Assembly (NCBI GenBank): GCA_900319645.1
Contig: ONPG01000007.1
Coordinates: 1-64,000, forward strand
Length of the DNA stretch: 64,000 nucleotides
Reading direction: 5' to 3'
From: an uncultured Bacteroidales bacterium
GTDB taxonomy: Bacteria > Bacteroidota > Bacteroidia > Bacteroidales > Paludibacteraceae
The notes under the pieces were generated by a model, which saw nothing but the letters and a program-made list of their open reading frames with translations, was not told the origin of the DNA and ran no database searches. The position numbers and the translations under genes are program-made. Positions 32,606 through 61,813 of the stretch are shown here, piece by piece (positions within the stretch are counted from its first letter, which is position 1; every line of letters begins with the position of its first letter).

Positions 32606-33636
32606 ACTTCACACCAGTGATGTCTGTCCTCGGCTCGGCCGAACTGGATATCTCTCAGCGAGTGGTACAAGTCGGTCAGAATGGGTCCCGGTTCGTCGCT
32701 CAGGTGGTAGATTTTGTTTTTCTCAGGGTCAATCACCTTGCTGATAGGCGATATCACACACGCCGTGCCGCATGCAGCGGCTTCCTGCATCTGATCCAAC
32801 TCCTCCAGCGCGATATGCCGTCTCGTTACTTTGTAGCCTTTGTCCTTCGCCAGCGTCATCAGACTGTCGTTCGTGATACTCGGCAGGATTGCACTACTCC
32901 TCGGCGTCAGATACTCAATCTGGTCTTTCGACTTTTGACTTTCGACTTTCGACTTTATCCCAATAAAATTCGCTGCGCTACACTCGTCAATATATCGATG
33001 ATATTTGGCATCGAGGAACAGACAGTCCATGCCTTGCGCATGTGCCGGTTCGGTCGCACGGAACGACGATGCGTAGTTACCGCCCACTTTGAACTGACCC
33101 GTTCCGTAAGGCGCCGCACGATCCACATGCCTGTTCACCACAAACGTCGTGCAATGAAACTTCCCCGGGTAGTACGGACCGATAGGCGATGGGATCACTA
33201 TAAACTCAAAATCCCTTCCCGGACCGACACCCAAACGCGGCGTTGTGCCGATCAGCAGCGGTCGGAAATACAGCGTTGCGTCTGTGCCGTAAGGCGGCAG
33301 AAAATCCATGTTTTTCTCCAGTGCCAGCCGGATGGCCTTTCCGAATAACTCTTCCGGAACGGGTTGCATATACAAGCCTTCCGCACTTCGTGCCATTCGT
33401 TTGGCGTTCTCCCTCCAACGGAAAATACGTATCTTGCCGTCCACACCACGGAAGGCTTTCAAGCCCTCGAAAGCCTCTTGTCCGTATTGCAGACAGGTGG
33501 CGGACACGTGCAAATGCAGGTATTTGTCCGCCGTGGCGTAGGGTTCTTCCCATGCGCCGTTGTGATATGCCGCCCGGACGATGTAGTCCGGCTCGGTATA
33601 ATGAAATCCTAAATTACTCCAATTGATATCTTTCAT
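32593..33636 (-). CDS. ilvE: Branched-chain amino-acid aminotransferase
   Basis: A fold-type IV PLP enzyme that interconverts Leu/Ile/Val and their 2-oxo acids. The PLP lysine is K183 in FKVGGNYASS. YIDECSAANFIGI (about 215-227) and SSAILPSITNDSL (247-259) complete the active site. Residues about 228-238 (KSKVESQKSKD) replace the short beta-turn usually found between FIGIK and YLTP; they are encoded by a 32-nt tandem repeat. The start codon overlaps the WbqC-like stop by 4 nt, indicating translational coupling. Confidence 0.95.
   Translation of the reverse strand: MKDINWSNLGFHYTEPDYIVRAAYHNGAWEEPYATADKYLHLHVSATCLQYGQEAFEGLKAFRGVDGKIRIFRWRENAKRMARSAEGLYMQPVPEELFGKAIRLALEKNMDFLPPYGTDATLYFRPLLIGTTPRLGVGPGRDFEFIVIPSPIGPYYPGKFHCTTFVVNRHVDRAAPYGTGQFKVGGNYASSFRATEPAHAQGMDCLFLDAKYHRYIDECSAANFIGIKSKVESQKSKDQIEYLTPRSSAILPSITNDSLMTLAKDKGYKVTRRHIALEELDQMQEAAACGTACVISPISKVIDPEKNKIYHLSDEPGPILTDLYHSLRDIQFGRAEDRHHWCEVIDN
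32925..32956. repeat. 32-nt repeat (GACTTTC units) inside ilvE
   Basis: Four GACTTTY units with 7-nt period. The 32 bases are identical to 34770-34801 inside lepB, and both are read in the same frame as KSKVESQKSK. Confidence 0.92.
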
Positions 33637-34172
33637 TGCAAATGGTCGGTTGTTTCCGGCCCATATTCAAACAATTCGTCTAATATACTGTGTCCGTCTC
33701 CGAAGAAACGATTCAACTCTTCTCCTCTCCAGTCCGTCGTGCAGCGGTAGGCGTATTCTCCTCCTTTGAGCGAAGGGCGGGTGTTCCGCAGCAAAGCCAT
33801 AATCGTCTCGTGCAGCTCGCTGTTCAAGTCCCAGAGAAAGCGGTATTCTTTCTCGTAGAACGGTTTGAAGAACTCCTCGTAGTAGTCGAAATACGGTGTG
33901 TTCTTATAGGCCGATACCAGCGAGATCCAGTGTTGGTGTTGCCAGCGGGTCTGATAGCTGATCTCGATATCCCGTGTCAACTGCTTGTGCTCCACTTTCT
34001 TTACCGGTATCGTCAGTCTCACCAATTCGCCATTAGTGTCGTGAATGAGTGCACGGTTGCGGCAGGTCTGTTTCTCAAACGATTCCAGTCCTTCTATCTC
34101 CATCTTCTCCGGAGCGGTCAGGTACGCCTTGTACCACTCCTTTGGTGCCATATATGCGACAGGTAATACCAA
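33633..34172 (-). CDS. WbqC-like family protein (179 aa)
   Basis: The features RNRALIHDTNGELVRLTIPV (core RNRALI...LTIPV), WQHQHWISLVSAYKNTPYF and FLWDLNSELHETIM match WbqC-like proteins, often found with lepB in Bacteroidetes. Some family members have been linked to surface-polysaccharide synthesis; the reaction here is unknown. The start lies 16 nt after the lepB stop, and the end overlaps ilvE by 4 nt. Confidence 0.8.
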   Translation of the reverse strand: MVLPVAYMAPKEWYKAYLTAPEKMEIEGLESFEKQTCRNRALIHDTNGELVRLTIPVKKVEHKQLTRDIEISYQTRWQHQHWISLVSAYKNTPYFDYYEEFFKPFYEKEYRFLWDLNSELHETIMALLRNTRPSLKGGEYAYRCTTDWRGEELNRFFGDGHSILDELFEYGPETTDHLQ

Positions 34173-34188
34173 TTCTTACTCTGTATCT

Positions 34189-35568
34189 TTATCTTTTCGC
34201 ACCGTTTCCTATTCTGTTCCAGCGGATGGAGTGGGTGTCTTTGTCCACGCTGAGCCAGATGAATACCGGCCGTCCGACGATGTGGTCCTCCGGCACGAAG
34301 CCCCAGTATCGACTGTCGGCGGAGTTATGGCGGTTGTCGCCCTGCATCCAGTAGTAATCCATCGCGAACTCATATTCCTCGCCTATTCGCATCGGTTTGA
34401 ACTCATACGCGTCCGCTATACGTTTATAAATCCAGAAGTTCTCCTCCGTGATCATCAGCTTATCGCCTTTCTTCGGGATGTAGATCGGTCCGTAGTTGTC
34501 ACGTGTCCAGTTGTTGTGCCCCAAGGGATAAACGCTTCCGCCCAAAGCGTCCTCTTCCACTTCGATGGCGCGTACGTGCGAGTTCTTCGAAAGCTCTGCA
34601 CGCATCTCTTCCGTCAGCGGGAAATGCCACATGTCGCTTCTCACCTGCTTGCGGTCGGCTATGCTGATGCCGAGTTTCTCCAAGTACTTGGCGCTGAAGA
34701 TATGTCCGTCTGTCAGTACAAAATAGTTGAGTTGCAGCCCCTCTCTCTCCGGCTCACGCTGCCAGTCGGCTTTCGACTTTTGACTTTCGACTTTCGACTT
34801 TGTATAAACGACATTGTCGATGATACGCAGGCTGTCTCCCGGTGTGCCCACGCAGCGTTTTACGTAGTTCTCACGCCTATCGACAGGACGGACGGTCAGG
34901 TTCTGCAAGTCACGTGGGTTGATGCCGTAATACCGCAGCACCCCGTAACCTTGTGTCTCGGCAATGTGCCTGAGCGAGTAATAGTCGGGGTTCTCATGAC
35001 CGATGACCACTGTGTCGCCGGCAGGGAAATTGAACACTACGATATCCTCTTTCTTCGGGCTGGTCCATCCTTTGAGACGCTTGTAGTCCCAATGCGGTTT
35101 GTCCAGATAACTCTTGCCGCCGCCCAGCCATTCCGGGAAGGTGTGTTGTACGAGCGGCATGGAGAGCGGTGTCTGCGGCACGCGTGCACCGTAAGCCATC
35201 TTGCTCACGTACAGGAAATCGCCCACGCGAAGCGTCTTCTCCAGACTCGAACTCGGGATCTGGTAGTTCTGGAAGATATACAGGTTGATGAAATACACGG
35301 CTACCAGCGCAAAAACAATCGCGTCTAACCAACTAAACAAGGTATAAAGGAACGCATTTGTCTCCTTATACTTCTTCCACCACCCGTAGTTGATATACTT
35401 GGTGGTGAACATATCCACTACGAGTGGCAGCAGTACTAACCACCCTAAACTCTTCCAGTCGCCCCAGGCAACCCATATCACGAACGCCACATACAATGCG
35501 CTCCAGATACCTGCGCGGATCCATTCGCCGCGACTCGTCTCTTTGATTCTATCTTGAAAACTTTTCAT
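34189..35568 (-). CDS. lepB: Signal peptidase I
   Basis: An inner-membrane serine protease that removes Sec signal peptides. Two to three N-terminal helices (residues about 20-52 and 75-100) precede the catalytic serine in IPSSSLEKTL (S108). The catalytic lysine is in YVKRCVGTPGD (K237), and box E is GDNRHNSADSRYWG. At 459 aa it is of the long Bacteroidetes type. Residues about 257-267 (KSKVESQKSKA) are encoded by the same 32-nt repeat as in ilvE and lie just after the GTPGD box. Confidence 0.95.
   Translation of the reverse strand: MKSFQDRIKETSRGEWIRAGIWSALYVAFVIWVAWGDWKSLGWLVLLPLVVDMFTTKYINYGWWKKYKETNAFLYTLFSWLDAIVFALVAVYFINLYIFQNYQIPSSSLEKTLRVGDFLYVSKMAYGARVPQTPLSMPLVQHTFPEWLGGGKSYLDKPHWDYKRLKGWTSPKKEDIVVFNFPAGDTVVIGHENPDYYSLRHIAETQGYGVLRYYGINPRDLQNLTVRPVDRRENYVKRCVGTPGDSLRIIDNVVYTKSKVESQKSKADWQREPEREGLQLNYFVLTDGHIFSAKYLEKLGISIADRKQVRSDMWHFPLTEEMRAELSKNSHVRAIEVEEDALGGSVYPLGHNNWTRDNYGPIYIPKKGDKLMITEENFWIYKRIADAYEFKPMRIGEEYEFAMDYYWMQGDNRHNSADSRYWGFVPEDHIVGRPVFIWLSVDKDTHSIRWNRIGNGAKR
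34770..34801. repeat. 32-nt repeat (GACTTTC units) inside lepB
   Basis: Base-for-base identical to 32925-32956 in ilvE, 1.8 kb away, and in frame. Confidence 0.92.
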
Positions 35569-35885: not shown

Positions 35886-36659
35886 TTAACGGGTCAAACT
35901 CTCTGCCGCTAATACTGCTCCTAATGCAAATCCTCTGCGTCCCTTAGCCACATGTGTAATAATAATCGTATCTTCCTCGCTGTCCCACGTCACCGTGTGT
36001 GTGCCCGGCACTTCGCCCTCGCGGATACTTTCAATCGGAATCACTTCTCCCTCCCTTGCGGGGAGGGTCGGGGAGAGGTTTTGAATCTGCTCCGCTAACG
36101 TTTTGGCGGTCCCACTGGGTTTGTCGAGCTTGTGTATATGGTGTATCTCCGTGATCGAAGGCGAATAATGGTCGCCGGCCTTTGCCTTCAGTTCCTGCGC
36201 TAAAAAGCGGTTGAGATCAAAGAACACATTCACGCCCACCGAGTAGTTGCTGCTCCAAACAAGCATGACCTTTCCCTTCTCATCGCGCACAATCCATTTG
36301 TTGCTTTCCTCCCTTCCTTTTAGGGAAGGGTCGGGGTTAGGCTTGTTTATTCCGGTTGTTCCGCAGACCACCGGCACGCCTTGTGCCCAAGCTTTGCGCA
36401 CATTCTCCTCCGCCGTTTGAGGCGTCGTGAACTCAATCGCCACATCCGCGCTCCGGAAAGCCTCACTCTCAAAACCTTCCTCCGGAGAATAATATCTTAC
36501 AGGCGAAGCCGGTCCTACAGCGTTAGCGGTCTTACAGTCGCTTTGCGACGATCCTACAGCACAGCGGTCTATCACGCAAGTGATCTCGTGTCCTCTGCTC
36601 AGGGCCACTTCCTCAATCATGTGACCCATTTTTCCGTATCCGATAATTGCTATTTTCAT
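35886..36659 (-). CDS. dapB: 4-hydroxy-tetrahydrodipicolinate reductase
   Basis: The enzyme makes tetrahydrodipicolinate in the diaminopimelate/lysine pathway. The nucleotide-binding loop IIGYGKMGHMIE is at residues 4-15. EIHHIHKLDKPSGTAKTLAE carries the catalytic His and Lys. Three stretches look like in-frame insertions encoded by repeat-type DNA: residues about 33-51 (VGSSQSDCKTANAVGPAS), 105-118 (PNPDPSLKGREES) and 193-206 (LSPTLPAREGEV). All lie between recognisable blocks, and the core motifs are intact. Confidence 0.93.
   Translation of the reverse strand: MKIAIIGYGKMGHMIEEVALSRGHEITCVIDRCAVGSSQSDCKTANAVGPASPVRYYSPEEGFESEAFRSADVAIEFTTPQTAEENVRKAWAQGVPVVCGTTGINKPNPDPSLKGREESNKWIVRDEKGKVMLVWSSNYSVGVNVFFDLNRFLAQELKAKAGDHYSPSITEIHHIHKLDKPSGTAKTLAEQIQNLSPTLPAREGEVIPIESIREGEVPGTHTVTWDSEEDTIIITHVAKGRRGFALGAVLAAESLTR
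36044..36082. repeat. GC-rich palindromic element inside dapB (first)
   Basis: CTCCCTTGCGGGGAGGG followed by TCGGGGAGAGG. It belongs to the same type as 36307-36345, 48587-48620 and 58947-58991: a short stem followed by a G-rich run. Confidence 0.75.
36307..36345. repeat. GC-rich palindromic element inside dapB (second)
   Basis: CTCCCTTCCTTTTAGGGAAG forms a stem and is followed by GGTCGGGGTTAGG. It encodes PNPDPSLKGREE in frame. Confidence 0.75.
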
Positions 36660-36725
36660 CTTTCAGTTTTCAGTTTTCAATTTTTCTCGCGTGCGTGCGT
36701 CGCGCACACAAGGCAAAATCGGCTG

Positions 36726-37395: not shown

Positions 37396-37415
37396 CCTTC
37401 GTACTTGGTTCTTGG

Positions 37416-39230: not shown

Positions 39231-39238
39231 TATTGAAA

Positions 39239-42004: not shown

Positions 42005-43747
42005 TTATTCGTTAATTATCATTTCGCATTTTTTGCAATCGAAATGAAGTGCCAGCACTTTGCCGGTACGGAGACGCAGATACCGTGGCTCCTTGTCTTT
42101 GGGATAAGGATTCACCTTGCGGCAGTGTCCTGCTTCATGGAGAATGCAATATTTGCACTCCATGAGAGGTCGCTTTGCTGACAGACCGCTTTGCTGAGAG
42201 ACCGTTTTACTGACAGACCGTCCTTCGGACTGACAGACCGCTTCGCTGAGAGACACAAGCGGCTTTGAGTCCGCAGGACGATCTTTTGTCTTTTGACTTT
42301 CTACTGTTGCTCGTCTCCATTCGTTCAGTACACTAATAGGTATAAAATAGTTATTGGTCTCTATGCGGATAGTGCGCGCCACGTATGGTGTGTCGCCTAA
42401 TTTGCTCAGTTGGGTGCGAATCGTCTGCCGGGCTTTCTCGGCATCGCGAGCCGGCTCTTTGGCAAAACCTTCTCCCACGTTTCCCACAACGGGAGCGAGC
42501 TTCGGATCAACAGGTGTATAACTTAGTTCAAAACCCTCCTCCGTCTCGCGGAACAGGATATCTACGGGAATACGCCGCTCGGAGTGCAGATTCTTCACAA
42601 ACTCTGTGTCAAGATTTCGGTATAACGGCATATTATTATATCGGGAAAACGTCAAGACTTTGTTGATCTTGATTCGGCTTCCCTCCACTCCGTTGACGGA
42701 GAAACCCTCGCTGCCGAGTGTCAGTCCGTCGCCGTTGTGCAGCACGACGCCTTGTTTCAGTCGCACACGTAGTGTATTGCCTTGTGCCTCAACCACTTCG
42801 CCTACATGTTCTCCGGTCGATTTCGGAGTCTCCCAGTTAGCCATGTGCGGCGTGCGGCCGTGGAGGAAATAATCGATTCCTCCGCGGTGGAAAGTCTTCT
42901 CCGGATCCGGAACAAACGAGCGGGTAATAACGGATTCCCGGTGACAGAAACCGGAAAGTTTCTCCCGATAGTAAGCGGTTATATTCGTCACATAATCAGC
43001 ATCTTTTAATCGACCTTCGATCTTAAAGGTTGTCACGCCGGCGTCTATCAGTTCTTTTAGATATTGGCTACGGTCCAGATCTTGCAGCGACAGCAGGTAG
43101 CGCTGGTGGATAGGCTCGCCGTGGTCGTCCAAAACTTCATTCATGGACTCGTCCAAGAGGTCGTACGCCATCCGGCAATACTGCGCACAAGCACCTCTGT
43201 TCGCACTTCGCCCCGACAACACCTCGCTGATATAGCAACGTCCCGAATAGCTCACACACAAAGCGCCGTGAACAAAAGCCTCCAACTCGATATCCGGAAC
43301 CGCCTTGTGAATAGCCCGTATCTCGTCTATTCCCAATTCGCGCGCCAACACCACGCGCTTGAATCCCAAGTCCCTCAGATAAGCCACCTGTTCGGGTGTG
43401 CGGTTGTCGCATTGGGTCGAAGCGTGCAGACGGATAGGCGGCAAATCAAAGTCCAACAAGTGCAGATCCTGGATGATCAATGCATCTACTCCTATCTTGT
43501 ATAACGCGTGCGCGAGCGCAACTGCTTCGGGATACTCGTCCTCGTGCAGCAAGGTGTTGAGCGTCACAAGCACCTGCACACCATACGTGTGGGCATAACG
43601 AACCACCTCTGCCAAATCCTCCAGGCTGTTGCCCGCTGCCTGACGCGCACCAAAAGCCGGCGGACCGATATAAATAGCATCAGCTCCGGCCTGTATTGCC
43701 GCTTTGGCTACCTCTTTGTTTTTCGCCGGAGATAATAATGAAAGCAT
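42005..43747 (-). CDS. U32 family peptidase / tRNA-rRNA hydroxylase family protein (580 aa)
   Basis: The N-terminal TIM-barrel LSLLSPAKNKEVAKAAIQAG and GADAIYIGPPAFGAR matches family U32. The conserved Cys cluster is CVSYSGRCYISEVL...CAQYCRM (about residues 165-195). Members such as TrhP and RlhA act in RNA hydroxylation; peptidase activity is shown for others. The C-terminus has CKYCILHEAGHC and CKKCE, possibly metal-binding. Residues about 482-528 are encoded by two kinds of repeat DNA (VESQKTKD and SVSKTVSQQSGLSAKR) and look inserted. Confidence 0.88.
   Translation of the reverse strand: MLSLLSPAKNKEVAKAAIQAGADAIYIGPPAFGARQAAGNSLEDLAEVVRYAHTYGVQVLVTLNTLLHEDEYPEAVALAHALYKIGVDALIIQDLHLLDFDLPPIRLHASTQCDNRTPEQVAYLRDLGFKRVVLARELGIDEIRAIHKAVPDIELEAFVHGALCVSYSGRCYISEVLSGRSANRGACAQYCRMAYDLLDESMNEVLDDHGEPIHQRYLLSLQDLDRSQYLKELIDAGVTTFKIEGRLKDADYVTNITAYYREKLSGFCHRESVITRSFVPDPEKTFHRGGIDYFLHGRTPHMANWETPKSTGEHVGEVVEAQGNTLRVRLKQGVVLHNGDGLTLGSEGFSVNGVEGSRIKINKVLTFSRYNNMPLYRNLDTEFVKNLHSERRIPVDILFRETEEGFELSYTPVDPKLAPVVGNVGEGFAKEPARDAEKARQTIRTQLSKLGDTPYVARTIRIETNNYFIPISVLNEWRRATVESQKTKDRPADSKPLVSLSEAVCQSEGRSVSKTVSQQSGLSAKRPLMECKYCILHEAGHCRKVNPYPKDKEPRYLRLRTGKVLALHFDCKKCEMIINE
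42165..42304. repeat. In-frame repeats inside the U32 gene
   Basis: 42165-42254 holds five degenerate units of GACAGACCGCTTYGCT (16-20 nt). 42283-42304 holds TTTTGAC-type 7-nt units. The first contains AGCGAAGCGGTCT (minus strand), also found at 62650-62710 and 63470-63510. Confidence 0.8.
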
Positions 43748-43785: not shown

Positions 43786-44343
43786 CTATTTAACGGCGCG
43801 AAGCGCCTCAGACATCCGGTACATAACGATGCCGGCAGTCACGGAGACGTTCATCGAGTGCTTGGTTCCGTACTGTGGAATCTCAATACATCCGTCGCAC
43901 CTATCCACGACTTCCTGCTGCACGCCGAAAACCTCATGTCCGAATACCACAGCGATCTTTGTCCTTAGTCCTTTGTCCCTTTGTACTTTCCGGGCTGCAT
44001 CCTCGAGGGTCACGGAGTCGTGCGCTTGCTCCACGGCATAGACCTGATATCCCTGCTCTTGAAGGGCATTGACCGCCTCGATGGTGTCCTTGTAATAACT
44101 CCACCCGACGCTCTCCTCGGCGCCTAAGGCGGTTTTGTGAATCTCCTGATTAGGTGGGCAGCAGCAGATACCGCATAGCACGACGCGCTCGATACGCATT
44201 GCGTCGGCTGTGCGGAAGACAGCCCCGATGTTATGTTGGCTACGCACATTGTCCAACACGACCGTCAGCGGTAGTTTGTCGGCTTCGCGATATGCCTCTA
44301 CGGACAATCGTCCCATCTCTTGTGTCGTCAGTTTCTTGCTCAT
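43786..44343 (-). CDS. SpoU/TrmH-family RNA 2'-O-methyltransferase (185 aa)
   Basis: A SPOUT-fold methyltransferase. Motif 1 is LDNVRSQHNIGAVFRTADA (residues 30-48), motif 2 is VVFGHEVFGV (132-141) and motif 3 is IPQYGTKHSMNVSVTAGIV with the core KHSMNVSVTAG. The substrate RNA cannot be told from sequence. Residues 119-128 (KVQRDKGLRT) are encoded by a 7-nt repeat and lie just before motif 2. The start overlaps the rimM stop by 4 nt. Confidence 0.9.
   Translation of the reverse strand: MSKKLTTQEMGRLSVEAYREADKLPLTVVLDNVRSQHNIGAVFRTADAMRIERVVLCGICCCPPNQEIHKTALGAEESVGWSYYKDTIEAVNALQEQGYQVYAVEQAHDSVTLEDAARKVQRDKGLRTKIAVVFGHEVFGVQQEVVDRCDGCIEIPQYGTKHSMNVSVTAGIVMYRMSEALRAVK
43957..43990. repeat. 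7-nt repeat (CTTTGTC units) inside the SpoU gene
   Basis: CTTTGTCCTTAGTCCTTTGT followed by CCCTTTGTACTTTC. The same unit type occurs in rsgA at 61588-61667. Confidence 0.85.
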
Positions 44344-44729: not shown

Positions 44730-45226
44730 CTCTTTTGGGAAATAACCAGTTTGCCCGTTTCTTTGCCGTTGACGCTTAGAGGACGCAGTGTCTCGTGGGC
44801 TATCCCGCGTTGGGGAGCTGCTGTTCCTGAACTGATGTCGTATTCTTCGCCGCACTCGGGACAAACGCCGTATAAGCCGTCGATGAGACAAGGTCTGCAC
44901 AGACTTTTCTGAGCGCAGTGGGGACAAGCCAGATCAAAAGCGCAGTAGTCTTTCAGCATGTTGACATACACAATTACCCCTCCGTAACCGCAACGGTCGG
45001 TTGCCAGCAACGGCTGAACGAGTTTGTCTTTGTGGAAATACCCCTGAGGCGTAACAATCACGTAGTCGCCTATTATCTCACGCTGGAAATGCACAAAATC
45101 GCCCATACGGGTGTCAATCACCACGTGTACGGGGTAAGCCGGCACGCTGTTTTGGAACGTACTATTCTCGCAGCCCGCCATCAGCATCGCCCCCAGTAAT
45201 AATCCTATAAACTTAAATCCTTTCAA
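44726..45226 (-). CDS. Rieske-like lipoprotein with two CxxC pairs (166 aa)
   Basis: The lipobox LMAGC ends at residue 19. The C-terminal half carries CPHCAQKSLCRPC and CPECGEEYDISSGTA, with the overall layout of a Rieske domain. The second ligand pair (CPxH in true Rieske proteins) is replaced by CPEC, so a [2Fe-2S] Rieske centre is doubtful and a zinc-ribbon or modified centre is possible. Related lipoproteins are known in Bacteroidales without assigned function. The signal peptide MKGFKFIGLLLGAML is almost the same as that of the DUF4292 protein. Confidence 0.75.
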   Translation of the reverse strand: MKGFKFIGLLLGAMLMAGCENSTFQNSVPAYPVHVVIDTRMGDFVHFQREIIGDYVIVTPQGYFHKDKLVQPLLATDRCGYGGVIVYVNMLKDYCAFDLACPHCAQKSLCRPCLIDGLYGVCPECGEEYDISSGTAAPQRGIAHETLRPLSVNGKETGKLVISQKR

Positions 45227-45255
45227 TTTTCAACTTTCAGTTTTCAGTTTTGAAT

Positions 45256-47016: not shown

Positions 47017-47598
47017 CTACAGCCATTTGCTGATATCAATCTTTGTGTACCGGGATTTCGGCAGTTGCGCGATACGAAGCGGCACATCTGTCTGGCGTTC
47101 CGGATAAGTGATGGTCAACTCGTATAGGTCATCGCCGTACGCGTATGTCAGCCGGGCTTTTTCGCTGCCTGTCGGCAGTTCGGCGGAGCAAATTTGTTGC
47201 AGGGTCTCCCAGCTGAGCGAAGGACTCAACTTGCGGTTGAGTGCATCGTAACTCGCGGAAGCGTATTGACCCTGTATCTTGTCAAAACCGGTTACTTCCT
47301 CCGGCGTAGCCTCCAGACGCATCATCTCAATGCCGAAGAGCGGCATCACACTGATCACCAGCAATGAATCGCGTACCACCTGCAGCGTCGCATTAGCTGC
47401 GATTCGGTTGTCCGGGGTCTGCACAACAATACGTGCACCTTGTATCAGACAGGTGTGCCACGTGGGAACAACCTTTTCCTCAACGACCGTTTGTGTTGCT
47501 TTTTTCTTCACGCCGCAACCCGCTATCAGCACGGCTGCTAACAATAATCCTATAAACTTAAATCCTTTCACTTTCACCTTTCCCCTTTCCGTTTTCAT
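47017..47598 (-). CDS. DUF4292 lipoprotein (193 aa)
   Basis: The lipobox VLIAGC lies near residue 28 and beta-rich sequence follows (IVVQTPDNRIAANATLQVV, LLVISVMPLFGIEMMRLEAT). It matches DUF4292 proteins, which resemble lipoprotein carriers or outer-membrane assembly proteins; the exact role is not known. The first nine residues (MKTERGKVK) come from a 7-nt repeat region, so translation may start at the GTG before KGFKFIG. It overlaps the TPR gene by 4 nt. Confidence 0.83.
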   Translation of the reverse strand: MKTERGKVKVKGFKFIGLLLAAVLIAGCGVKKKATQTVVEEKVVPTWHTCLIQGARIVVQTPDNRIAANATLQVVRDSLLVISVMPLFGIEMMRLEATPEEVTGFDKIQGQYASASYDALNRKLSPSLSWETLQQICSAELPTGSEKARLTYAYGDDLYELTITYPERQTDVPLRIAQLPKSRYTKIDISKWL

Positions 47599-48578
47599 CT
47601 TTCATTTTTCACCTTCTTCAGGTGTGCTTCTATCTCCGCTCGGGCTGCTTCGGTGGTGTTCCTCAGGGCTTTCTCCAGATAGAACAACGCCAGTTGGTCT
47701 TGACCTTGCAGGTGCATGATCCACCCGTAGGTGTCCAGATAAACAGGGTTCTCCGGCTCCTCGCGGATGGTTATCTGGCTCAACTGCTCTGCCTTGCGCA
47801 AGTCTCCCTTGTGCGTGGCAAGCAGGTAGGCGTAGTTATTCATTACCATCAGATTGCCCGGGTCGATTCTCAGCACACGCTCGTACATCTCGTACAACTC
47901 CTTGGCGCGTGTGCCTGTCCTTTCCATGAGCTCAATACGGTAGAGCAGAAACTGCACATTCGTCGGCTCGTTTTCCAGCCATTTATCTACTTCCGCAATC
48001 GCTTTCTTCGGTTTGCCCCATACGGCATAAGTGCTGGTCCGGTTATAAGCACTATAGACGTCGTAACCGCGGATAGCATCTATCTCGTCCTGTATAGCCA
48101 GGGCTTTCTTGCATTGTGCATTTGCTACATACAGCCGCCTCAGTTGTTCTAACAGTTCCTCGTTCTTGGGGTTCACTTGGTGGGCTTTCTCCAACACACG
48201 CAGGGCTTCCGCTCTTCCTTCGGCCGTTTTCTGAGCCATGAGTACGGCAAAATAGCGATACCACTGGTCGTACGGATCGTTTCTGAATGCTCGCTCAAAA
48301 GCATCAAAAGCCCGTTTGCTGTCGCCTAACGCATCGTACATAACTCCTAACAATCCCTGGGTCTCGCCGTCCTGAGGGTTGAGTTGTTCGCAGAATCTCA
48401 GCAACACCATCGCCTCGGGATAGCGCTCCTCGCGGATGGCTTGCTTGGCAGCGTACCAATAATAGGTAAACTGCTGCTGTCGCTCTACGCTCAGCGTGCT
48501 TTTCTCGCTCTGCTTCGGTGCTCCCCACAAAGGGAGAGTGGCTAATGCTATTAATATAATACCAATATATTTCTTCAT
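47595..48578 (-). CDS. Exported tetratricopeptide-repeat protein (327 aa)
   Basis: A signal peptide of about 19 residues (ALATLPLWG) precedes about seven to eight TPR units. Examples are YPEAMVLLRFCEQLNPQDGE, LGDSKRAFDAFERAFRNDPY, AEALRVLEKAHQVNPKNEEL and LALFYLEKALRN. TPR scaffolds bind partner proteins. The order dut, TPR, DUF4292, EnvC is conserved in Bacteroidales and points to an envelope role. The stop overlaps the DUF4292 start by 4 nt. Confidence 0.88.
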   Translation of the reverse strand: MKKYIGIILIALATLPLWGAPKQSEKSTLSVERQQQFTYYWYAAKQAIREERYPEAMVLLRFCEQLNPQDGETQGLLGVMYDALGDSKRAFDAFERAFRNDPYDQWYRYFAVLMAQKTAEGRAEALRVLEKAHQVNPKNEELLEQLRRLYVANAQCKKALAIQDEIDAIRGYDVYSAYNRTSTYAVWGKPKKAIAEVDKWLENEPTNVQFLLYRIELMERTGTRAKELYEMYERVLRIDPGNLMVMNNYAYLLATHKGDLRKAEQLSQITIREEPENPVYLDTYGWIMHLQGQDQLALFYLEKALRNTTEAARAEIEAHLKKVKNER

Positions 48579-50248: not shown

Positions 50249-50281
50249 AATTATCAATTCTCAATTGTCAATTATCAATTA
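50249..50281. repeat. 7-nt tandem repeat (ATTATCA)
   Basis: About four to five units of the ATTATCA / AATTGTC type fill the junction between the lipid kinase and the M6 protease; the last bases include the protease stop codon. Confidence 0.85.
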
Positions 50282-54836: not shown

Positions 54837-54925
54837 TTGTTTGGTTATTTGTCCATTGTCCATTGTCCATTGTCCATCGTCCATCGTACTTTCTCCCCTT
54901 GTACATTGTACATCGTCCCCTTGTA
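54837..54925. repeat. 7-nt repeat (GTCCATT) array, partly coding
   Basis: GTCCATT or GTCCATC occurs about five times, then GTAC-CTTGT type units. The minus-strand reading gives WTMDNGQWTMDK, which extends the second M6 protease. Confidence 0.9.
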
Positions 54926-57900
54926 CCTTATATACAATACTCCGTTCTTAATGAACTTCGTACCTCGTACTTCGTCCCCTTCTACTTTCTCTACGCTTGT
55001 TCCGAGTTGCTCGCATTCCGGCATCGTGGTGTAATAGGTGATTTGCTCTGCCTCCACGCCGCAAACGATGCTCACGGAGTGTATATAAATCGAATTGGTT
55101 GCGCAGTTTACCACTATCGAAACTTTTCCCGACGCGTGGTCAAAATCACAACTCAGGTCGCGCAAACTGGTACCTCCTGTTTTCGTAACGGCCAATGTCT
55201 TCTCGCTCTCGCCGACGCGGAAAACAATCTCTCCTGCGCCTTTGCTGGCGTTCGTGCAGTAGTTGACTACTACCCTCCTTACATCGCTCATCTCCGTCTT
55301 GGTAACAGTTCCTGCGCCGCTCGAACCGGTGGCTACTTGCACGCCTTGGTTGTCCTTCACGTACTGACCGCCGTCTTTCACGCTTTGCCAAGTGCCGCTC
55401 GGCTCTGTCCATTTGGCGTCACTAAACACATATTCCGTCTCTTGCGGTTCCGGATCTTCGCCTGTTGTGGGCAGGCTATAGACCGCGAAATAATCCTGTG
55501 CTTGTGTTACCGTGAAGTCGCTTACCCATTCGTGTGCCGTGGTGTTGTCCTGTGCTAACGGAGCGGTCCACCAGCCTGCGAAAGTGTATTGGTCGCAACC
55601 CTCCGGAGCCTCCGGCACTTCGGCGATATCGCCTTCCTGTAACTGCTGGTTGCTGATCTCCTCTTCTCCGTCGAAGAATCGGATGGTTACCGGTTCTATC
55701 GAGCATCTGTAGTCGTAATCGCCGTACAGCGTTTCATTGAAAAGCATCATCGAACCGATATAGGCGCGTTGGGTCGCTTGAATAGTGATGCTTTCTATTT
55801 CCATCGGTTCTTCAGTCCGGAAATAGATATAATTCATCTCTTCACTCAGCGTCTCTGTGGTTCCGAAGGCTGTGCCGCCGTTCACGCTGAGGCTGATAGA
55901 CGAAGCGTCGTTTCCGTACTTGCAGGCTTCAATCTTTATCTCGCTTGTCCGGACGGTCTTCTCCAGAGTTATCGTCATATTTCCGTTCGCTTTGCTACTA
56001 CCTAACTTGGCGCCGTTCTTCCCTGCGAACACTTTCGTTCCGCTATACGAAGCAATATTGGTTGCACTCTCCACAATAGAGCCGATCTTCTCGCTCACAT
56101 CGCTGCCATCGGCTTCGGCGGTCGCAAACTGTACTCTTGCCCATTCAGCGTAATCGCCTTTCTTTGTGCCATATACGGCATAGAAAACGCAGGTGTCACC
56201 CACCGTTTCATAGTTATTCACCAACTCAGGCGCTTGCGTCTCGCTCCGGTAATGTTCTTCCGGAGTCCAGCCTATAAACGCTCGCCCTTCACATGCCTTG
56301 ACGAGGTATGGCGCGTTAATCCAGTCGTTTATCGCTAATGTCCGGGCACATACCGTATCCTCGGCTATCCACGTCAGTTCCTTCCATGCGTGTGCAATAA
56401 TCACAATATGGTCTTTTACCGCAGGGATATTCATCAGATGGCTCTCCTCGTCGTACGTAAATCCTGTGCCATACACCAACTTCTCTTTGCCCATATACAC
56501 TTCCCAGCACGATGCGTCGGCCAGCGAATAACCTGTTTCCGGCACAAACGTCATATTCAGGTTGTAATCGAGACTGGTTATATTGGCTTCCGGCGCACTA
56601 CAATGGATCCCGCTGGCTTCATAAACGAAGAGATATTGTTCCGTGCCCCCGTTGTACTTAAATCCCACACGGCCTCCCGCTTCGTAGATGTCTGTGATGG
56701 CGCAGCCCGCAAAAGGTGTGAACTCCGTCACAGGGTTCCTTGTCCCGGGGAACGCATCCGAAGAGGTCCCGTATCCGCTTGTTTTCCCGTCTGCCGGAAC
56801 AATCGTGCATCGTGGAGCACCTGTCGTGTTGTTCACCTCGTTGTATTCCCACGTGGTTTGGTCGAATTGCACTTTCCAAACAATCATTCCGTGACCTGGC
56901 AGATAACTGTCCCAACCTTCTTTCTGACGGTTCTCGATATAATAAACGGTTCCTGGATCCGAATAGGCTACCAAACTGTTCCCGCCGCTTATCTGGTATC
57001 CATTTCCGTATCCGATACCCATCCGGCCGTTCGCTTGCTCGTTCTTGCCTAAGAACCTCGGCGTCGCCCAACCTAAATAGTACTTGTCAAAAATACTGTA
57101 GTTAGGAGGTGTATTCCCGTTGTTGTTATAACTGCCATAATCCATAGCCGACCATTCCCCGGGCGTAATACCATTCTTAGAGTTCTCCCCATACTGGGTG
57201 TCATAGTAATCCGGCAAACCCAATACGTGACCGAACTCATGACACGGCGTGCCTATTCCCGAACGGTCTCCGTTCCCTTGCAACTCCGCCGAGCAGACAT
57301 AGTTATTAATCGTCTTCCCGTCGAAAGTTGGCAGGTTGTCTATTCCCAAATACCATTTGTTGGCGTAATAACCCGAGGTCCCGTGTGTAAAACCGTAATC
57401 CAATTGGGAATACAACCGTCCGTTGTGCGGCCAGATAGTGGCACTACTACCTCCTGCTGCCTGACCTTTACCCGCAAAAAGCAGATACACAATATCTACA
57501 TAACCGTCATTGTTGGCGTCATACAAACTGAAATCGCAACCCGCTGCCTCGGCTGCATCTACCGCATCGGTCACAAGATCAGCTGTGTACATATCGTGAT
57601 ATACTTCATCGTCTTTGGTCCCTTCTTCGCCGTAATAGGCGACATCGTGCGGCAAGGTGAACGGACCATATACATCAAATATCGGCAAATACTGACCATT
57701 GGATTGCGCGTCAAAATAATCTGCTACGCTTCCTGTCGCGCCGTTGTAGTCATAACCCGGTTGGTTGAACGATTTCCAAAAATCATATTTCCCGTTCTCC
57801 GCTTGAAACCGCACATCCTGGTATTCCACTAACAGCACTAACACTCTCTCCGGCTGAATCGGATTACCGGGGCCCATCGGCATATACATCCGTCCGTTTG

Positions 57901-58273
57901 CTCCATTCCCTTTTGCTCCATTCGTGTTGTTCCGCCCGTTTTGTCCGTGTCTCATCTGAACGTGTGCGTTTCTGCGGGCGCGTATTTCTTCCGTACTTGG
58001 AGTCGTTTGGTCTGTTACCACAAAACGTCCGTCTTTTTGTTCTTCGGCTATTCGTCCGTCTTTGGTCACCCAATAGGAGTACACCTCATCGCCCATTTGG
58101 CGCAAGAGTATTTCCTCGCCGCTCTGATACTCTCCGTAGCTGCTTTCCGCTCCGCTCTTATCCTCTCCGTAGTAGCCTGCGAGTATTTTGGTTTGCCATC
58201 CCGGGTAAGCTGGTACTCCCCAAGCGTTTATGCCCAATATAAGAGCGATGCCTGTCAATAATATCTTTTTCAT
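54845..58273 (-). CDS. Secreted M6-family metalloprotease, second copy (1142 aa)
   Basis: The signal peptide MKKILLTGIALILGINAWG is followed by VPAYPGW, as in the neighbour. The catalytic domain has zinc motif HEFGHVLGLPDYYDT (near residue 344) and YDANNDGYVDIVYLLFAG. A short Asn/Gly-rich stretch (GRNNTNGAKGNGANG) precedes the catalytic domain. C-terminal modules resemble those of the 1515-aa protein. The shared tail (KFIKNGVLYIRYKGTMYNV, GEKV) is not terminal: 12 repeat-encoded residues (RWTMDNGQWTMDK core) follow, whereas all other copies stop right after this point. Tandem duplication with the neighbour is evident. Confidence 0.92.
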   Translation of the reverse strand: MKKILLTGIALILGINAWGVPAYPGWQTKILAGYYGEDKSGAESSYGEYQSGEEILLRQMGDEVYSYWVTKDGRIAEEQKDGRFVVTDQTTPSTEEIRARRNAHVQMRHGQNGRNNTNGAKGNGANGRMYMPMGPGNPIQPERVLVLLVEYQDVRFQAENGKYDFWKSFNQPGYDYNGATGSVADYFDAQSNGQYLPIFDVYGPFTLPHDVAYYGEEGTKDDEVYHDMYTADLVTDAVDAAEAAGCDFSLYDANNDGYVDIVYLLFAGKGQAAGGSSATIWPHNGRLYSQLDYGFTHGTSGYYANKWYLGIDNLPTFDGKTINNYVCSAELQGNGDRSGIGTPCHEFGHVLGLPDYYDTQYGENSKNGITPGEWSAMDYGSYNNNGNTPPNYSIFDKYYLGWATPRFLGKNEQANGRMGIGYGNGYQISGGNSLVAYSDPGTVYYIENRQKEGWDSYLPGHGMIVWKVQFDQTTWEYNEVNNTTGAPRCTIVPADGKTSGYGTSSDAFPGTRNPVTEFTPFAGCAITDIYEAGGRVGFKYNGGTEQYLFVYEASGIHCSAPEANITSLDYNLNMTFVPETGYSLADASCWEVYMGKEKLVYGTGFTYDEESHLMNIPAVKDHIVIIAHAWKELTWIAEDTVCARTLAINDWINAPYLVKACEGRAFIGWTPEEHYRSETQAPELVNNYETVGDTCVFYAVYGTKKGDYAEWARVQFATAEADGSDVSEKIGSIVESATNIASYSGTKVFAGKNGAKLGSSKANGNMTITLEKTVRTSEIKIEACKYGNDASSISLSVNGGTAFGTTETLSEEMNYIYFRTEEPMEIESITIQATQRAYIGSMMLFNETLYGDYDYRCSIEPVTIRFFDGEEEISNQQLQEGDIAEVPEAPEGCDQYTFAGWWTAPLAQDNTTAHEWVSDFTVTQAQDYFAVYSLPTTGEDPEPQETEYVFSDAKWTEPSGTWQSVKDGGQYVKDNQGVQVATGSSGAGTVTKTEMSDVRRVVVNYCTNASKGAGEIVFRVGESEKTLAVTKTGGTSLRDLSCDFDHASGKVSIVVNCATNSIYIHSVSIVCGVEAEQITYYTTMPECEQLGTSVEKVEGDEVRGTKFIKNGVLYIRYKGTMYNVQGEKVRWTMDNGQWTMDK

Positions 58274-58307
58274 CTGCCAAATATAATCTTTCCTGCAAAT
58301 TTGGCTG

Positions 58308-58346: not shown

Positions 58347-58379
58347 GCTACTTTTCTCAATTTTCTTTCATTTTTCGTT

Positions 58380-58500
58380 ACATTCCTGTCCTCCGTTCCC
58401 TCCCGTTTCCCCTCCCTTTCCCTTCCCATCCCTCCCTCCGTTCCTTTCCGTTTCCTCCTTTCCTGTCCCTCCCTTCCTGTCCCTCCCTCCCGTTGTAGGC
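58380..58500. other. Pyrimidine-rich tract
   Basis: About 120 bp are almost only C and T on the plus strand, with CCTGTCCCTCCCTTCC-type units repeated. No gene is present. Such tracts can form triplex or slipped DNA; the function is unknown. Confidence 0.7.
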
Positions 58501-58531
58501 TGGCCTCTGTCTATATATTAAGCGGGATGCG

Positions 58532-58590
58532 ATCCCGCTTCCCTCCCTATGCAATCCCGCTTCCCTCCCTATGCAATCCCGCTTCCCTCC
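58532..58590. repeat. 22-bp tandem repeat, about 2.7 units
   Basis: The unit ATCCCGCTTCCCTCC plus CTATGCA occurs at 58532-58553 and 58554-58575, with a partial third to 58590. The first unit forms a palindrome with GCGGGAT at 58522-58528. Confidence 0.85.
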
Positions 58591-58710
58591 GCTCCTCCTA
58601 ATTGTCTTTAATTGTCTTTAATTGTTGACCTCAAAAAATTCGCCCAATTCGCTTAATTCGCCGTTTGTTCCTTTTATGCCCCCCCAACCAACCCCAATTC
58701 GTTGGTTAAA

Positions 58711-58754
58711 ATAGCGTGATTATAGCGTGATTATAGCGTTATTATAGCGTGATT
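58711..58754. repeat. 11-bp tandem repeat, four units
   Basis: ATAGCGTGATT is repeated four times with one substitution (GTTATT in unit 3), upstream of the tsaD promoter. It may be iterated operator sites or simple slippage DNA. Confidence 0.85.
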
Positions 58755-58854
58755 AGCGGCTCGCTAAGGGCTCACAATCCCTCTTCCAAGCCCCTTTTTT
58801 AGCCCTTTTTCCATATAGCTTCCACTCCGTTTCCGACTGATTTTTTCACTTTTT

Positions 58855-58886
58855 CTTGCATATCTCAAAAAAAAGCAGTAATTTTG
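58855..58886 (+). promoter_or_regulatory. tsaD promoter
   Basis: CTTG (58855-58858), a 20-nt spacer and TAATTTTG (58879-58886), 21 nt before the chosen start codon. Confidence 0.7.
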
Positions 58887-58907
58887 CACCCGCAAATCAA
58901 AAAAACA

Positions 58908-60065: not shown

Positions 60066-60070
60066 AAATT

Positions 60071-60709
60071 GTGAATGTCAAATCCTACAAAGAAGCCCTG
60101 CGTCCATACCGGGATGTGATCATCTTTATGCTGACGCTTTTCGCCGTGAACTACTTCTGGAAGTTCACCGTCTCCGGCGATGAGTTCGACGAGCAGGTCA
60201 CCTGGTTCGGACTTGATATCACAGCTCCCTTTGAGTTCATGGCACGCCATGTCGCCTCGGCGGTCTATTGGCTTGTCTCGCTCTTCCGGGACGACGTCAC
60301 ACTCATTAGCGACCACACCATCCGTTTCCCCAACGGAGTTGGCACAACCATCGTTTGGGGCTGTTCCGGCCTCAAGCAGATGTTCATCTGGACGTTCCTC
60401 ATACTCACCATCTGTGACGTCCGCAAAGCCGACAAGGCTAAATCGCCAATTACCGATCACCAATTACCGATCACTAATCCTAAATCTTCCCTCCTTCTCC
60501 ACAAACTCTGGTTCATACCGCTCGGATGGATCTGTTGCTATGCCTTTAACATCCTGCGTATTTTCCTGATAACCATACTGATAGAGGACTATCCCACGTG
60601 GTTTAATTTCCTCCACGATTACCTCTTCAAGTACGCTTTCTACGGCATGCTTTTCCTGCTTTGGGTCGTATTTATAGAAAAAATCCGCCCCTCGCAAGAG
60701 ACGGATTGA
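60071..60709 (+). CDS. Exosortase/archaeosortase-family membrane protein (212 aa)
   Basis: A polytopic membrane protein of about six helices. The three residues typical of exosortases are visible: Cys in WGCSGLKQM (C98), Arg in FNILRIFLI (R163) and His in NFLHDYLFKYAFYG (H182). These transpeptidase-like enzymes cleave C-terminal motif-TM-basic signals. The start is GTG, 5 nt after tsaD, so the genes are probably co-transcribed. Residues about 125-139 (SPITDHQLPITNPKS), between two membrane segments, are encoded by a 7-nt repeat. A candidate substrate in the window is the 245-aa Cys-rich protein. Confidence 0.82.
   Translation: MNVKSYKEALRPYRDVIIFMLTLFAVNYFWKFTVSGDEFDEQVTWFGLDITAPFEFMARHVASAVYWLVSLFRDDVTLISDHTIRFPNGVGTTIVWGCSGLKQMFIWTFLILTICDVRKADKAKSPITDHQLPITNPKSSLLLHKLWFIPLGWICCYAFNILRIFLITILIEDYPTWFNFLHDYLFKYAFYGMLFLLWVVFIEKIRPSQETD
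60446..60480. repeat. 7-nt repeat (CCAATTA/CCGATCA) inside the exosortase-like gene
   Basis: CCAATTACCGATCA occurs twice, then CTAATCC. It is in frame and encodes the PITDHQLPITN segment. Confidence 0.9.
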
Positions 60710-60790
60710 TATCCTTTATTACGCCAAATCACTATTGTCCCAATAGTATCTATCCTCACTTCCTTTAGTGGATGGAGGACAGCCTCGGCG

Positions 60791-61813
60791 TTACCTGTAC
60801 TTCGTTTCTGTACAATCGCCTAAGATCGACAGGTACGATTCGTACCGGCTGATAGCTATCTCGTCGTGCTCCACGGCATCAATAACCGCGCAGCCCGGCT
60901 CGTTGGTGTGTGTGCAGTTTCCGAAACGGCACTCGCTGCTTTTCCGGAAGATCTCACGGAAGAAATGACCCACTTCTTCTTTTTCAAAATCAATCGTCCC
61001 GAATCCCTTGATTCCCGGCGTGTCAATCAGCCAGCCATGAATACCGTCCTTTGTACTTGGTACTTGGTCACTTAGTCCCTTGTACTCGTACATTTCCGAG
61101 AAAGTGGTGGTGTGCATACCTTTGTCGTGTGCGTCGGAAATCTTTCCCGTCCGTGTCATCTCTTTGCCGAACAAAGCGTTCAGTAATGTGGACTTGCCGA
61201 CGCCCGAGTTGCCGGATAGCAAGGTCACTTTTCCTTCTAACAAACCCGGTAATTCGGACACCTCTATGTCTCCGGATATGGCAGACATCGCTAATGTCTG
61301 ATAACCAATACTTTCGTATAATTGGCGCAACTCTTCCAACTTTGCCAACTCGTCCTCCGTGAGCAGATCGGTCTTGTTGAAAATCAGTACTGCCGGTACG
61401 CGATAAGCCTCGCAGGTCGCTAAGAATCGGTCAATAAACGTAGTGCTTGTCTGCGGATGATTGACCGTGACAATCAAAGCCACCTGGTCGATGTTTGCTG
61501 CCAGGATATGGCTCTCTTTGCTCAGGTTGGTGGACTTGCGGATGATATAGTTCCGCCGCTCTTCCACATCCGTAATCCAATAAACACCATTGTCCTTTGT
61601 CCATTGTCCTTTGTCCTTTGTCCATCGTCCATCGTCCTTTGTCCCTTGTCCTTGGTCACTTAGTACCTTCACAAAGTCTCCAACGGCCACAGGATTAGTA
61701 CTACGAATACCCCGGATGCGGAAATTGCCTTTTACATGGCATTCCACATCCTGCCCGTCGTCCAGCCGGACGACGTAGCTGCTACCCGTTGACTTAATGA
61801 CGAGACCTCTCAA
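60791..61813 (-). CDS. rsgA: Small ribosomal subunit biogenesis GTPase RsgA
   Basis: The circularly permuted GTPase is shown by NKTD (G4), GNSGVGKST (G1, near residues 201-209) and DTPGIKGFG (G3). An N-terminal OB domain and a C-terminal zinc finger (C295, C300, H302, C308) complete it. It helps mature the 30S subunit. Two repeat-encoded inserts lie in loops: residues about 51-76 in the OB domain (QGTKDDGRWTKDKGQWTKD core) and about 244-256 before G3 (YKGLSDQVPSTKDG). All motifs are intact, so it is probably functional. Confidence 0.95.
   Translation of the reverse strand: MRGLVIKSTGSSYVVRLDDGQDVECHVKGNFRIRGIRSTNPVAVGDFVKVLSDQGQGTKDDGRWTKDKGQWTKDNGVYWITDVEERRNYIIRKSTNLSKESHILAANIDQVALIVTVNHPQTSTTFIDRFLATCEAYRVPAVLIFNKTDLLTEDELAKLEELRQLYESIGYQTLAMSAISGDIEVSELPGLLEGKVTLLSGNSGVGKSTLLNALFGKEMTRTGKISDAHDKGMHTTTFSEMYEYKGLSDQVPSTKDGIHGWLIDTPGIKGFGTIDFEKEEVGHFFREIFRKSSECRFGNCTHTNEPGCAVIDAVEHDEIAISRYESYLSILGDCTETKYR
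61046..61090. repeat. 7-nt repeat (GTACTTG) inside rsgA, near G3
   Basis: GTCCTTTGTACTTGGTACTT and GGTCACTTAGTCCCTTGTAC, in frame. Confidence 0.85.
61588..61667. repeat. 7-nt repeat (TTGTCCT/TTGTCCA) inside rsgA OB domain
   Basis: About eleven 7-nt units (GTCCTTT, GTCCATT, GTCCATC and variants) over 80 bp, in frame. Confidence 0.92.

Follow-up and report, generated by a model that had tools for sequence, protein, structure and literature searches.

Heptamer arrays lie in frame at loops of conserved Bacteroidales enzymes and turn over between sister species

How do short tandem arrays of a 7-nt unit come to lie, in frame, inside conserved enzyme genes? The question is raised by positions 1 to 64,000 of contig ONPG01000007.1 (GCA_900319645.1, an uncultured Bacteroidales bacterium of the Paludibacteraceae), the whole stretch of DNA analysed here and hereafter called the window. 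A first-pass annotation had described heptamer arrays in frame inside at least six of its genes and had read them as insertion into core enzymes. Genes, open frames and peptides all agree with that description (Table 1), which confirms the observation of in-frame heptamers in conserved genes; the interpretation is partly supported.

With our own period-7 score (+1 match, −2 mismatch; TRF run alongside), the window holds eight arrays at a score of at least 14 and 11 at a score of at least 11, an excess far above chance: 20 order-2 shuffles of the window yielded none at either threshold, and the same scan of 50 kb of E. coli found none. The strongest in-gene arrays are those of ilvE (score 19), lepB (20) and the rsgA N-loop (34, at 61590-61651). 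Those of the exosortase-like gene (TRF period 14, score 60), the SpoU methyltransferase (TRF period 7, score 43) and the rsgA C-loop (TRF 34, own score 10) are weaker, and the U32 heptamers are marginal (TRF 31, 2.7 copies, own score 9); neither the rsgA C-loop nor the U32 array would convince on its own. In-frame arrays were also found in additional conserved genes elsewhere in this genome, among them those for a GH149 phosphorylase, PPi-phosphofructokinase and a TrmN-like methyltransferase. An Rfam scan of the window returned no match.

Table 1. Repeat arrays of the window, with positions, strand and basis of assignment.
Feature	Position	Strand	Basis
ilvE (GTCGAAA)n array, in frame, SKVESQKSK, turn after ...NFIGIK	32925..32956	-	scan, homologue alignment
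lepB array, in frame	34766..34801	-	scan, homologue alignment
U32 peptidase linker, weak heptamer stretch, VESQKTK	42282..42304	-	
U32 peptidase linker, 16-nt repeat array, CGCTTTGCTGACAGAC type	42171..42254	-	
SpoU methyltransferase array, in frame, KVQRDKGLRTK	43957..43990	-	
Exosortase-like gene array, in frame, CCAATTACCGATCA, PITDHQLPITN	60442..60480	+	
rsgA C-loop short array, between model strands 240-244 and 260-264	61046..61090	-	
rsgA N-loop long array, GGACAAA/GGACGAT units, between model strands 47-52 and 78-83	61587..61667	-	
Gene-junction array, AATTATC units; stop codon of upstream gene inside array	30934..30980	-	
Gene-edge array, TTTTCAG units	36654..36684	-	
Gene-junction array, TTTTCAG/TTTTCAA units	45221..45251	-	
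Array over overlap of two genes, CTTTCAC/TTTTCAT units	47571..47611	-	
Gene-junction array, AATTATC units	50249..50281	-	
C-terminal array in gene 54845-58273, TTGTCCA units	54849..54918	-	
Intergenic array upstream of rsgA, ATTTACG units	61834..61865	.	

In a 464-kb sample of the same genome, period 7 (54 arrays) exceeds all other periods from 4 to 24, period 8 being next with 24, and it also dominates in relatives. Forty of the 54 lie between genes or at their edges, in sequence of which about 17% is non-coding, and 11 lie well inside genes, counts that are approximate because the gene calls were home-made. An excess of the 7-nt unit over chance and over other periods, combined with an excess in non-coding DNA, characterises heptanucleotide simple sequence repeats, and both are found here. 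In each of four data sets, array length has its mode at about four units (~31 nt; 178 of 433 arrays overall). A modulo-7 bias of length gave P = 0.055 at a looser and P = 0.007 at a stricter threshold, and we do not build on it. In-gene and intergenic arrays do not differ in degeneracy, with a mean self-match of 0.908 in both (n = 78 and 122).

Most of the nearest named relatives are Paludibacteraceae MAGs from the ruminant stomach. Both flanks of the insert align with homologues in ilvE, lepB, rsgA, SpoU and the exosortase-like gene. A further alignment, A1, comprises 35 of 38 sequences, with L064, L122 and L127 left out. The inserts are gaps for ilvE, lepB, rsgA and the exosortase-like gene in the order-level homologues fetched (6, 10, about 12 and 2 rows, respectively; for ilvE, 15 order-level genomes matched and six rows, L045-L050, were aligned). 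This pattern was not supported for SpoU, whose relatives have linkers of similar length at the array site, and for U32, where heptamers are a minor part of a 171-nt repeat-rich linker that is variable in length anyway. Both RsgA inserts are placed between strands in the structural model, in agreement with the claim that the inserted peptides lie in loops, and the RsgA structure 1u0l has a gap at the C-loop insert. The IlvE turn is naturally variable, since the best solved homologue, 4dqn, has a gap at the array site and the second-best, 7lv7, a non-repeat loop of about the length found in the window. Non-repeat homologues of equal length, which the first-pass annotation had named as evidence against insertion, thus exist for IlvE, and four outgroups carry such sequence at a WaaA-like site; for 15 of the 53 arrays that homologues span, equal length is the commonest class among those homologues.

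Where the window has an array, genus relatives often have something else inserted: different heptamers, palindromes of the CCCTCCC type, 15-16-mers, or a stretch in which no repeat is evident. At least three classes of repeat occupy these loops, and to treat heptamers as the inserted class was too narrow; among the longer IlvE turns within the genus, 8 of 13 lack an evident repeat. Of 80 RsgA loci fetched, the C-loop could be read in 71 (nine C-loops and seven N-loops were unreadable), and 12 of the 71 have a heptamer array there. These 12 orthologous loops carry 10 different units, so dispersal of a single family is rejected as the sole explanation. At the WaaA-like position, the arrays of four species agree in length and phase and are built from different units (AAAATTA, AAGGTGA, AAGGCGA and CGGGTTA), as in concerted slippage. 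The encoded peptides differ with the unit, and housekeeping enzymes are among those encoded by the host genes (rsgA, lepB, hisS and the waaA-like gene).

Turnover between sister species is fast. In 47 site comparisons, the array was absent in 29 partners, replaced by another unit in 14 and present with the same unit in four; these comparisons (six pairs, three with a common species; duplicates removed heuristically) are not independent, because four of the pairs come from only two species clusters. Among the 29 array-free partners, nine are shorter by 34-40 nt, and five are equal in length, which is overwriting or lost periodicity rather than insertion. One empty junction (L128) retains a single AAAATTA unit, possibly a seed. 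Because the same sites differ between species, insertion or replacement is recurrent, and on this ground the proposed insertion process in core enzymes is upheld in the form of recurrent insertion or replacement. The 21-nt (three-unit) period suggested for in-frame arrays finds some support in an exact 21-nt difference in 5 of 47 sister comparisons, but all five are in rsgA loops.

Units are shared preferentially within genomes. Identical-unit pairs make up 131 of 1912 (6.9%) within genomes versus 301 of 28448 (1.1%) between them, in a statistic that leaves out ten distant loci and is not controlled for composition; some named loci sample one genome twice (L107 and L162, with identical RsgA loops), a duplication whose sole possible effect is to inflate the between-genome value. 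With the window's own genome removed, the counts are 33 of 485 versus 173 of 18026, and 200 label permutations reached at most 3.8%. The ilvE array and the lepB array (34770-34801) are an identical 32 bp, which, on the sequences, suggests copying; as proof of copying this identity was rejected, being not rare by a rough hand estimate from family variant frequencies. The AAAGTCG family gives 31 three-unit matches in the window's own genome versus three for a reversed control. It was found in 2 of 198 order genomes, the own one included, in a sample without other genus members, and as single arrays in the samples of five genus relatives. Many unit families coexist per genome; the own sample has 22 distinct units, none of which is TAACTGA or a rotation of it, and none contains GGG or CCC.

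We consider it probable that slippage or template switching inserts the arrays again and again, and that selection retains those which keep the frame and fall in tolerant loops. Replication or repair errors would repeatedly generate short tandem arrays, most often of about four copies of a 7-nt unit, through polymerase slippage and microhomology-primed template switching, onto the array itself or onto arrays elsewhere in the genome. At gene junctions, array birth would often gain about 35 nt in one step, and later slippage could rewrite the unit across the whole array. Selection would purge copies that shift the frame, introduce stops or fall in structured parts, so that in-gene survivors would be stop-free, frame-preserving and located at hairpin turns and linkers, and presumably neutral. 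On this reading the arrays are neither a functional module nor a classic transposon. Mismatch repair generally misses 7-nt loops, and its loss was rejected as a cause, MutS being present in 24 of 25 genus genomes. Plain slippage predicts a steady fall with length, in contrast to the peak at four units in four data sets, and slippage from local seeds alone leaves the abundance of AAAGTCG in the window's own genome unexplained.

A function for the arrays is unlikely. Between genes they could act as linkers or regulators (stop/start-codon context, mRNA stability, translation coupling) and within genes as phase-variable switches; of the oriented arrays close to the 3' end of a gene, 23 of 28 in the own sample and 21 of 23 in relatives have their purine-rich side on the coding strand (two and seven unoriented arrays set aside), and translational regulation has been proposed for TAACTGA repeats (MacGregor 2015, PMC4679880). 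However, unit, length and presence shift even among sister species, and in housekeeping enzymes slippage by one unit would break the frame.

Slightly less credible still is a dedicated enzyme that writes fixed-size arrays of about 31 nt from a genome-specific template, as telomerase does at broken eukaryotic chromosome ends. The four-unit preference in all data sets, the gain of 34-40 nt rather than single units at nine sister sites and the within-genome sharing of units all fit such an enzyme, whereas the many unit families per genome do not. Nor do the candidate agents: reverse transcriptase (RVT_1) was found in 5 of 25 genus genomes, several of them incomplete, and not in the own genome (84% complete). 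A search for Y1_Tnp, the family of the RAYT transposase that mobilises REP elements, gave weak matches in 6 of 16 genus genomes including the own one; five of these passed the cut-off, the best with E 2.9e-8, and several of the genomes are incomplete. A reverse transcriptase or strong Y1 transposase as agent is unsupported by the genus-genome searches. We give the same low credence to the idea of a process that measures its product, perhaps run by a polymerase or integrase devoted to it, and inserts arrays of about 31-35 nt (four units and a few nt) at once, copying resident units. If true, it would mean that new loops are seeded in essential enzymes across rumen Bacteroidales, and it would explain why bacterial repeats, as has long been noted, tend to 7 nt and four units.

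It is quite improbable that mobile palindromic elements of the REP/RPE type insert in frame and leave heptamers as a by-product. CCCTCCC/GGGAGGG palindromes and 15-16-mers do occupy the same loops, GACCGCTNCGCT occurs 13 times in 464 kb versus 0.67 expected, and a related hairpin sequence adjoins some AAAGTCG arrays; yet the heptamer arrays lack inverted repeats and fixed ends, and most are isolated. An artefact of MAG assembly or binning is very improbable: the compared genomes are mostly MAGs and repeats can confuse short-read assembly, but a single read is longer than an array of about 31 nt, the same loops are hit in MAGs of different project accessions, and the frames stay open.

The arrays, read here as probable products of slippage or template switching, have known relatives. 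Heptanucleotide long simple sequence repeats of prokaryotes (Mrazek et al. 2007, cited in PMC4679880 and PMC4692102) are likewise tandem 7-nt units and over-represented, with slippage proposed as their origin; as cited there, they differ from the present case, with its many in-frame arrays in core enzymes and orthologous loops re-occupied by other units. TAACTGA direct repeats of Beggiatoaceae, Cyanobacteria and five Bacteroidetes including Paludibacter (MacGregor 2015, PMC4679880) are heptamers mostly in two to six copies, mainly at gene junctions with some in ORFs. As described there, that system has one unit, related heptamers are rare and ORF copies lie mostly at protein ends, unlike the many units, none of them TAACTGA, inserted in internal loops here. 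GGGNATC repeats of Xanthomonas and Nostoc (Rehm et al. 2015, PMC4692102) share the clear four-unit preference and the position adjoining ORF ends; in that account four units are tied to the G-quadruplex, whereas here they are preferred without GGG or CCC in the own-sample units. Rickettsia palindromic elements (Ogata 2000, 2002, cited in PMC10969869 and PMC3733652) also place repeated DNA in frame within diverse unrelated genes (metabolic ones in Rickettsia), but are described as about 150 bp long with a conserved peptide, in contrast to tandem arrays of about 31 nt with varying peptides. Cyanobacterial STRR heptamers (Mazel 1990, cited in PMC2670836) are 7-bp tandem repeats of another phylum, cited for promoter and intergenic positions; the earlier remark that heptamers are known in cyanobacteria holds, but the cited literature names other carriers and they are not special to that group. 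A 2025 survey (PMC12699852) gives 3-bp units as commonest in prokaryotes, short runs of which our score threshold does not see, and describes Bacteroidota as repeat-dense in genomes and coding regions. Among the open-licence papers listed by our searches, we recognised none that describes heptamer arrays lying in frame within enzymes of Bacteroidota. Taken separately, heptamer repeats are already known, and so are repeats inserted in frame.

In summary, a common and little-explained class of bacterial repeat enters proteins at the same loops many times. Repeat-coded loops are to be expected in gene prediction and alignment in such genomes, and a four-unit preference without GGG runs questions the G-quadruplex explanation of similar repeats. 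Rumen Bacteroidales offer a natural system in which to study the origin of new loops in essential enzymes and the bias of bacterial repeats to 7 nt.

The period-7 arrays (tandem runs of 7-nt units) claimed for the window by the first-pass annotation are real: 11 reach a self-comparison score (+1 per match, −2 per mismatch) of at least 11 and 8 a score of at least 14, whereas 20 order-2 shuffles gave no array reaching either score, and every site named there was also found by TRF, with uneven strength. By RsgA comparison, the nearest named relatives of the source genome (2.64 Mb, 48 contigs) are MAGs of Paludibacteraceae and Bacteroidales, the majority from ruminant stomach. The array-bearing proteins are a class IV aminotransferase (IlvE), signal peptidase I (LepB), a U32 peptidase, a SpoU methylase, an exosortase-like protein (under the Pfam cut-off, over that of NCBIfam exo_archaeo) and RsgA; ilvE and lepB share an identical 32-bp array. 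Across 464 kb of this genome (window plus 400 kb), 54 arrays score at least 13: 25 lie between genes, 15 at gene edges and 11 deep within genes, and 3 are genic but close to an end. Other in-frame cases occur in PPi-phosphofructokinase (SKVESQKSK again), a GH149 phosphorylase and, with matches under the curated cut-offs, a TrmN-like methyltransferase and a PnuC-like protein. Further repeats and neighbouring features are tabulated.

Additional repeats and gene features (window positions unless a locus is named)
Position	Feature	Detail
4725-11921; 13055-19654	Two very large proteins	Listeria-Bacteroides repeat domains; ~207-bp tandem repeat within the first
37416-39230	BspA-type leucine-rich repeat protein	69-bp tandem repeats
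42005-43747	U32 peptidase	C-terminal cysteine-rich module fused in frame; apparently a short overlapping ORF in genus loci L222-L225 and L230
50275-54906; 54845-58273	Adjacent proteins with M6 (immune inhibitor A type) peptidase domains	Heptamer array at the overlap
58398-58755	Intergenic CCTCCC-rich, 22-bp and 11-bp tandem repeats	Type resembles palindromic inserts in relatives' loops
42236, 62673, 62696, 63474, 63497; loci L281, L282, L290, L292, L294, L296, L298	Second dispersed family GACCGCTNCGCT	13 copies in 464 kb vs 0.67 expected; 3 within called genes
L296, ~17309-18710 (genome G000, contig C2)	CRISPR-like array	Exact 35-nt repeat core in 18 copies; of the first eight gaps, seven measure 76 nt and one 152 nt

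Comparison with homologues (29 relatives' loci aligned from 41 genomes searched for IlvE, 27 from 30 for LepB) points to insertion at the IlvE, LepB, RsgA and exosortase-like sites. Three residues stand in place of the IlvE array in the 6 aligned order-level rows (15 order-level genomes matched), the LepB insert is absent from all ten aligned order-level rows and the exosortase-like insert from both (n = 2), and order-level RsgA rows lack the insert at the N-loop and C-loop, one carrying four additional residues at the N-loop. The solved structures 4dqn (IlvE homologue) and 1u0l (RsgA, C-loop) likewise have gaps. The earlier claim that the arrays are insertions is supported in these cases. Against it, the IlvE structure 7lv7 has a non-repeat loop of a length similar to the window's, and for SpoU the case for insertion is weaker because the linkers of relatives are similar in length. 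In U32, the linker is short in five genus members (L222-L225, L230), which code the last module in another frame; in the window this module is joined in frame through a 171-nt repeat-rich linker.

The same loops carry different inserts among relatives. The IlvE turn has three residues in ten of 23 genus rows and more in 13. Among these 13, L029 has a heptamer array from the family seen in the window, L022 and L023 have palindromic sequence resembling CCCTCCC/GGGAGGG, L024 and L037 have 15-16-mers, and in eight a repeat is not evident. The LepB turn bears an insert in 7/17 genus rows: heptamers (L132, L133, L141), a heptamer-like stretch (L136), a palindrome (L134) or no evident repeat (L138, L139). 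SKVES-type or GGACAAA-type heptamers or 16-mers appear in three genus rows (L162, L164, L163) at the N-loop of RsgA. The C-loop holds a heptamer array in 12 of 71 readable loci (80 named RsgA loci), with 10 distinct consensus units, and spans at least 11 residues in 12/22 Paludibacteraceae-group, 20/41 Prevotellaceae/Bacteroidaceae-group and 0/8 distant rows. In an AlphaFold2 structure prediction for RsgA (mean pLDDT 79.4), strands 47-52 and 78-83 flank the N insert and strands 240-244 and 260-264 the C insert; both inserts fall in lower-confidence stretches, as would be expected of flexible hairpin tips.

Turnover between species is frequent. In six related-species pairs (86-92% identity; three pairs share species), the partner at 47 array sites had no array in 29, another unit in 14 and the same unit in 4. 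Of the 29 array-free partners, nine were shorter by 34-40 nt and four by exactly 21 nt, whilst five matched in length; a 21-nt difference also occurred at one of the 14 other-unit sites, and all five exactly 21-nt differences lie in rsgA loops. Two sister species have equal-length arrays of unlike units in a methyltransferase loop, and arrays were gained or lost among genus members at the junction downstream of ilvE. Of 61 gene-interior arrays (score at least 11) in the rsgA neighbourhoods and window, 40 fall in 423 kb of coding DNA from 22 Paludibacteraceae-group loci plus the window and 21 in 812 kb from the 58 remaining loci. Homologues from other species span 53 (41 genes, several being rsgA); two are too close to an end and six are spanned by none, among them the window's ilvE and lepB arrays, whose orthologues lie outside that locus set. 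The commonest homologue class was at least 3 residues shorter at 37 of the 53, equal in length at 15 and longer at one. At a WaaA-like site, four species carry in-phase, equal-length arrays whose units change in concert, and ordinary sequence as long as the array stands there in four outgroups; such equal-length cases show that an array can also overwrite existing sequence, or else that earlier insertions were trimmed. Density per 100 kb ranges from 0 to 40 across small genus samples (16-80 kb each), and is 15.6 in Paludibacteraceae-group loci, 7.5 in Prevotella-group loci and 4.5 in ten distant loci, where one Flavobacterium supplies 5/7 arrays; 50 kb of E. coli contained none.

The array units group around TGANAAT (5.1 bits over 178 arrays vs a shuffled mean of 3.7 and maximum of 4.06 in 30 controls), and identical-unit pairs are commoner within genomes (131/1912, 6.9%) than between genomes (301/28448). 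Arrays close to the 3' ends of genes usually have the purine-rich strand as their coding strand (23/28 oriented arrays in the own sample and 21/23 in relatives). The AAAGTCG family gives 31 three-unit matches in the source genome vs 3 for a reversed control; it occurs in 2/198 order genomes, the source genome included (no other genus member is among the 198), and as single arrays in samples of five genus relatives.

The arrays also have a preferred length of about four units, found in 178/433 after removal of duplicate sequences and modal in every set (own 33/99, genus 55/135, Paludibacteraceae group 47/106, Prevotella group 43/93; the genus and Paludibacteraceae sets are partly the same species). 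Intergenic lengths are commonest at 30-32 nt, with a lesser maximum at 37-39 nt, and genic lengths at 30-33 nt. For periods 6 and 9 counts fall with length, as for period 8 apart from a slight bump at 34-37 nt, also about four units.

We propose that arrays whose position, frame, turnover, unit sharing, period and preferred size are directly observed would have originated by slippage and template switching, with selection for frame; gain may occur in one step, and the arrays may be neutral. MutS was found in 24/25 genus genomes. Simple slippage does not account for the preferred size, which is the best reason for retaining the less likely alternative that a dedicated enzyme writes arrays of fixed size. 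As a consistent companion, neither a reverse transcriptase (found in 5/25 genus genomes, not in the source genome) nor a strong Y1 transposase was found in genus genomes. Rehm et al. (PMC4692102) describe four units for G-rich heptamers and link this number to G-quadruplexes; as a general cause of the four-unit preference these are ruled out, since GGG and CCC are missing from all 22 own-sample units.

Heptamer excess in bacteria (PMC4679880, PMC4692102), TAACTGA repeats, with two sets in Paludibacter propionicigenes (MacGregor 2015, PMC4679880), cyanobacterial STRR heptamers (PMC2670836), REPs within genes, and in-frame Rickettsia elements (PMC10969869, PMC3733652) are already in print. We recognised no prior report of repeated heptamer insertion in internal enzyme loops in open-licence literature listings. 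MacGregor describes coding-sequence insertion as seemingly successful primarily at the protein periphery (PMC4679880). In contrast to the TAACTGA repeats and the other published cases, the present arrays repeatedly hit internal loops of conserved enzymes.
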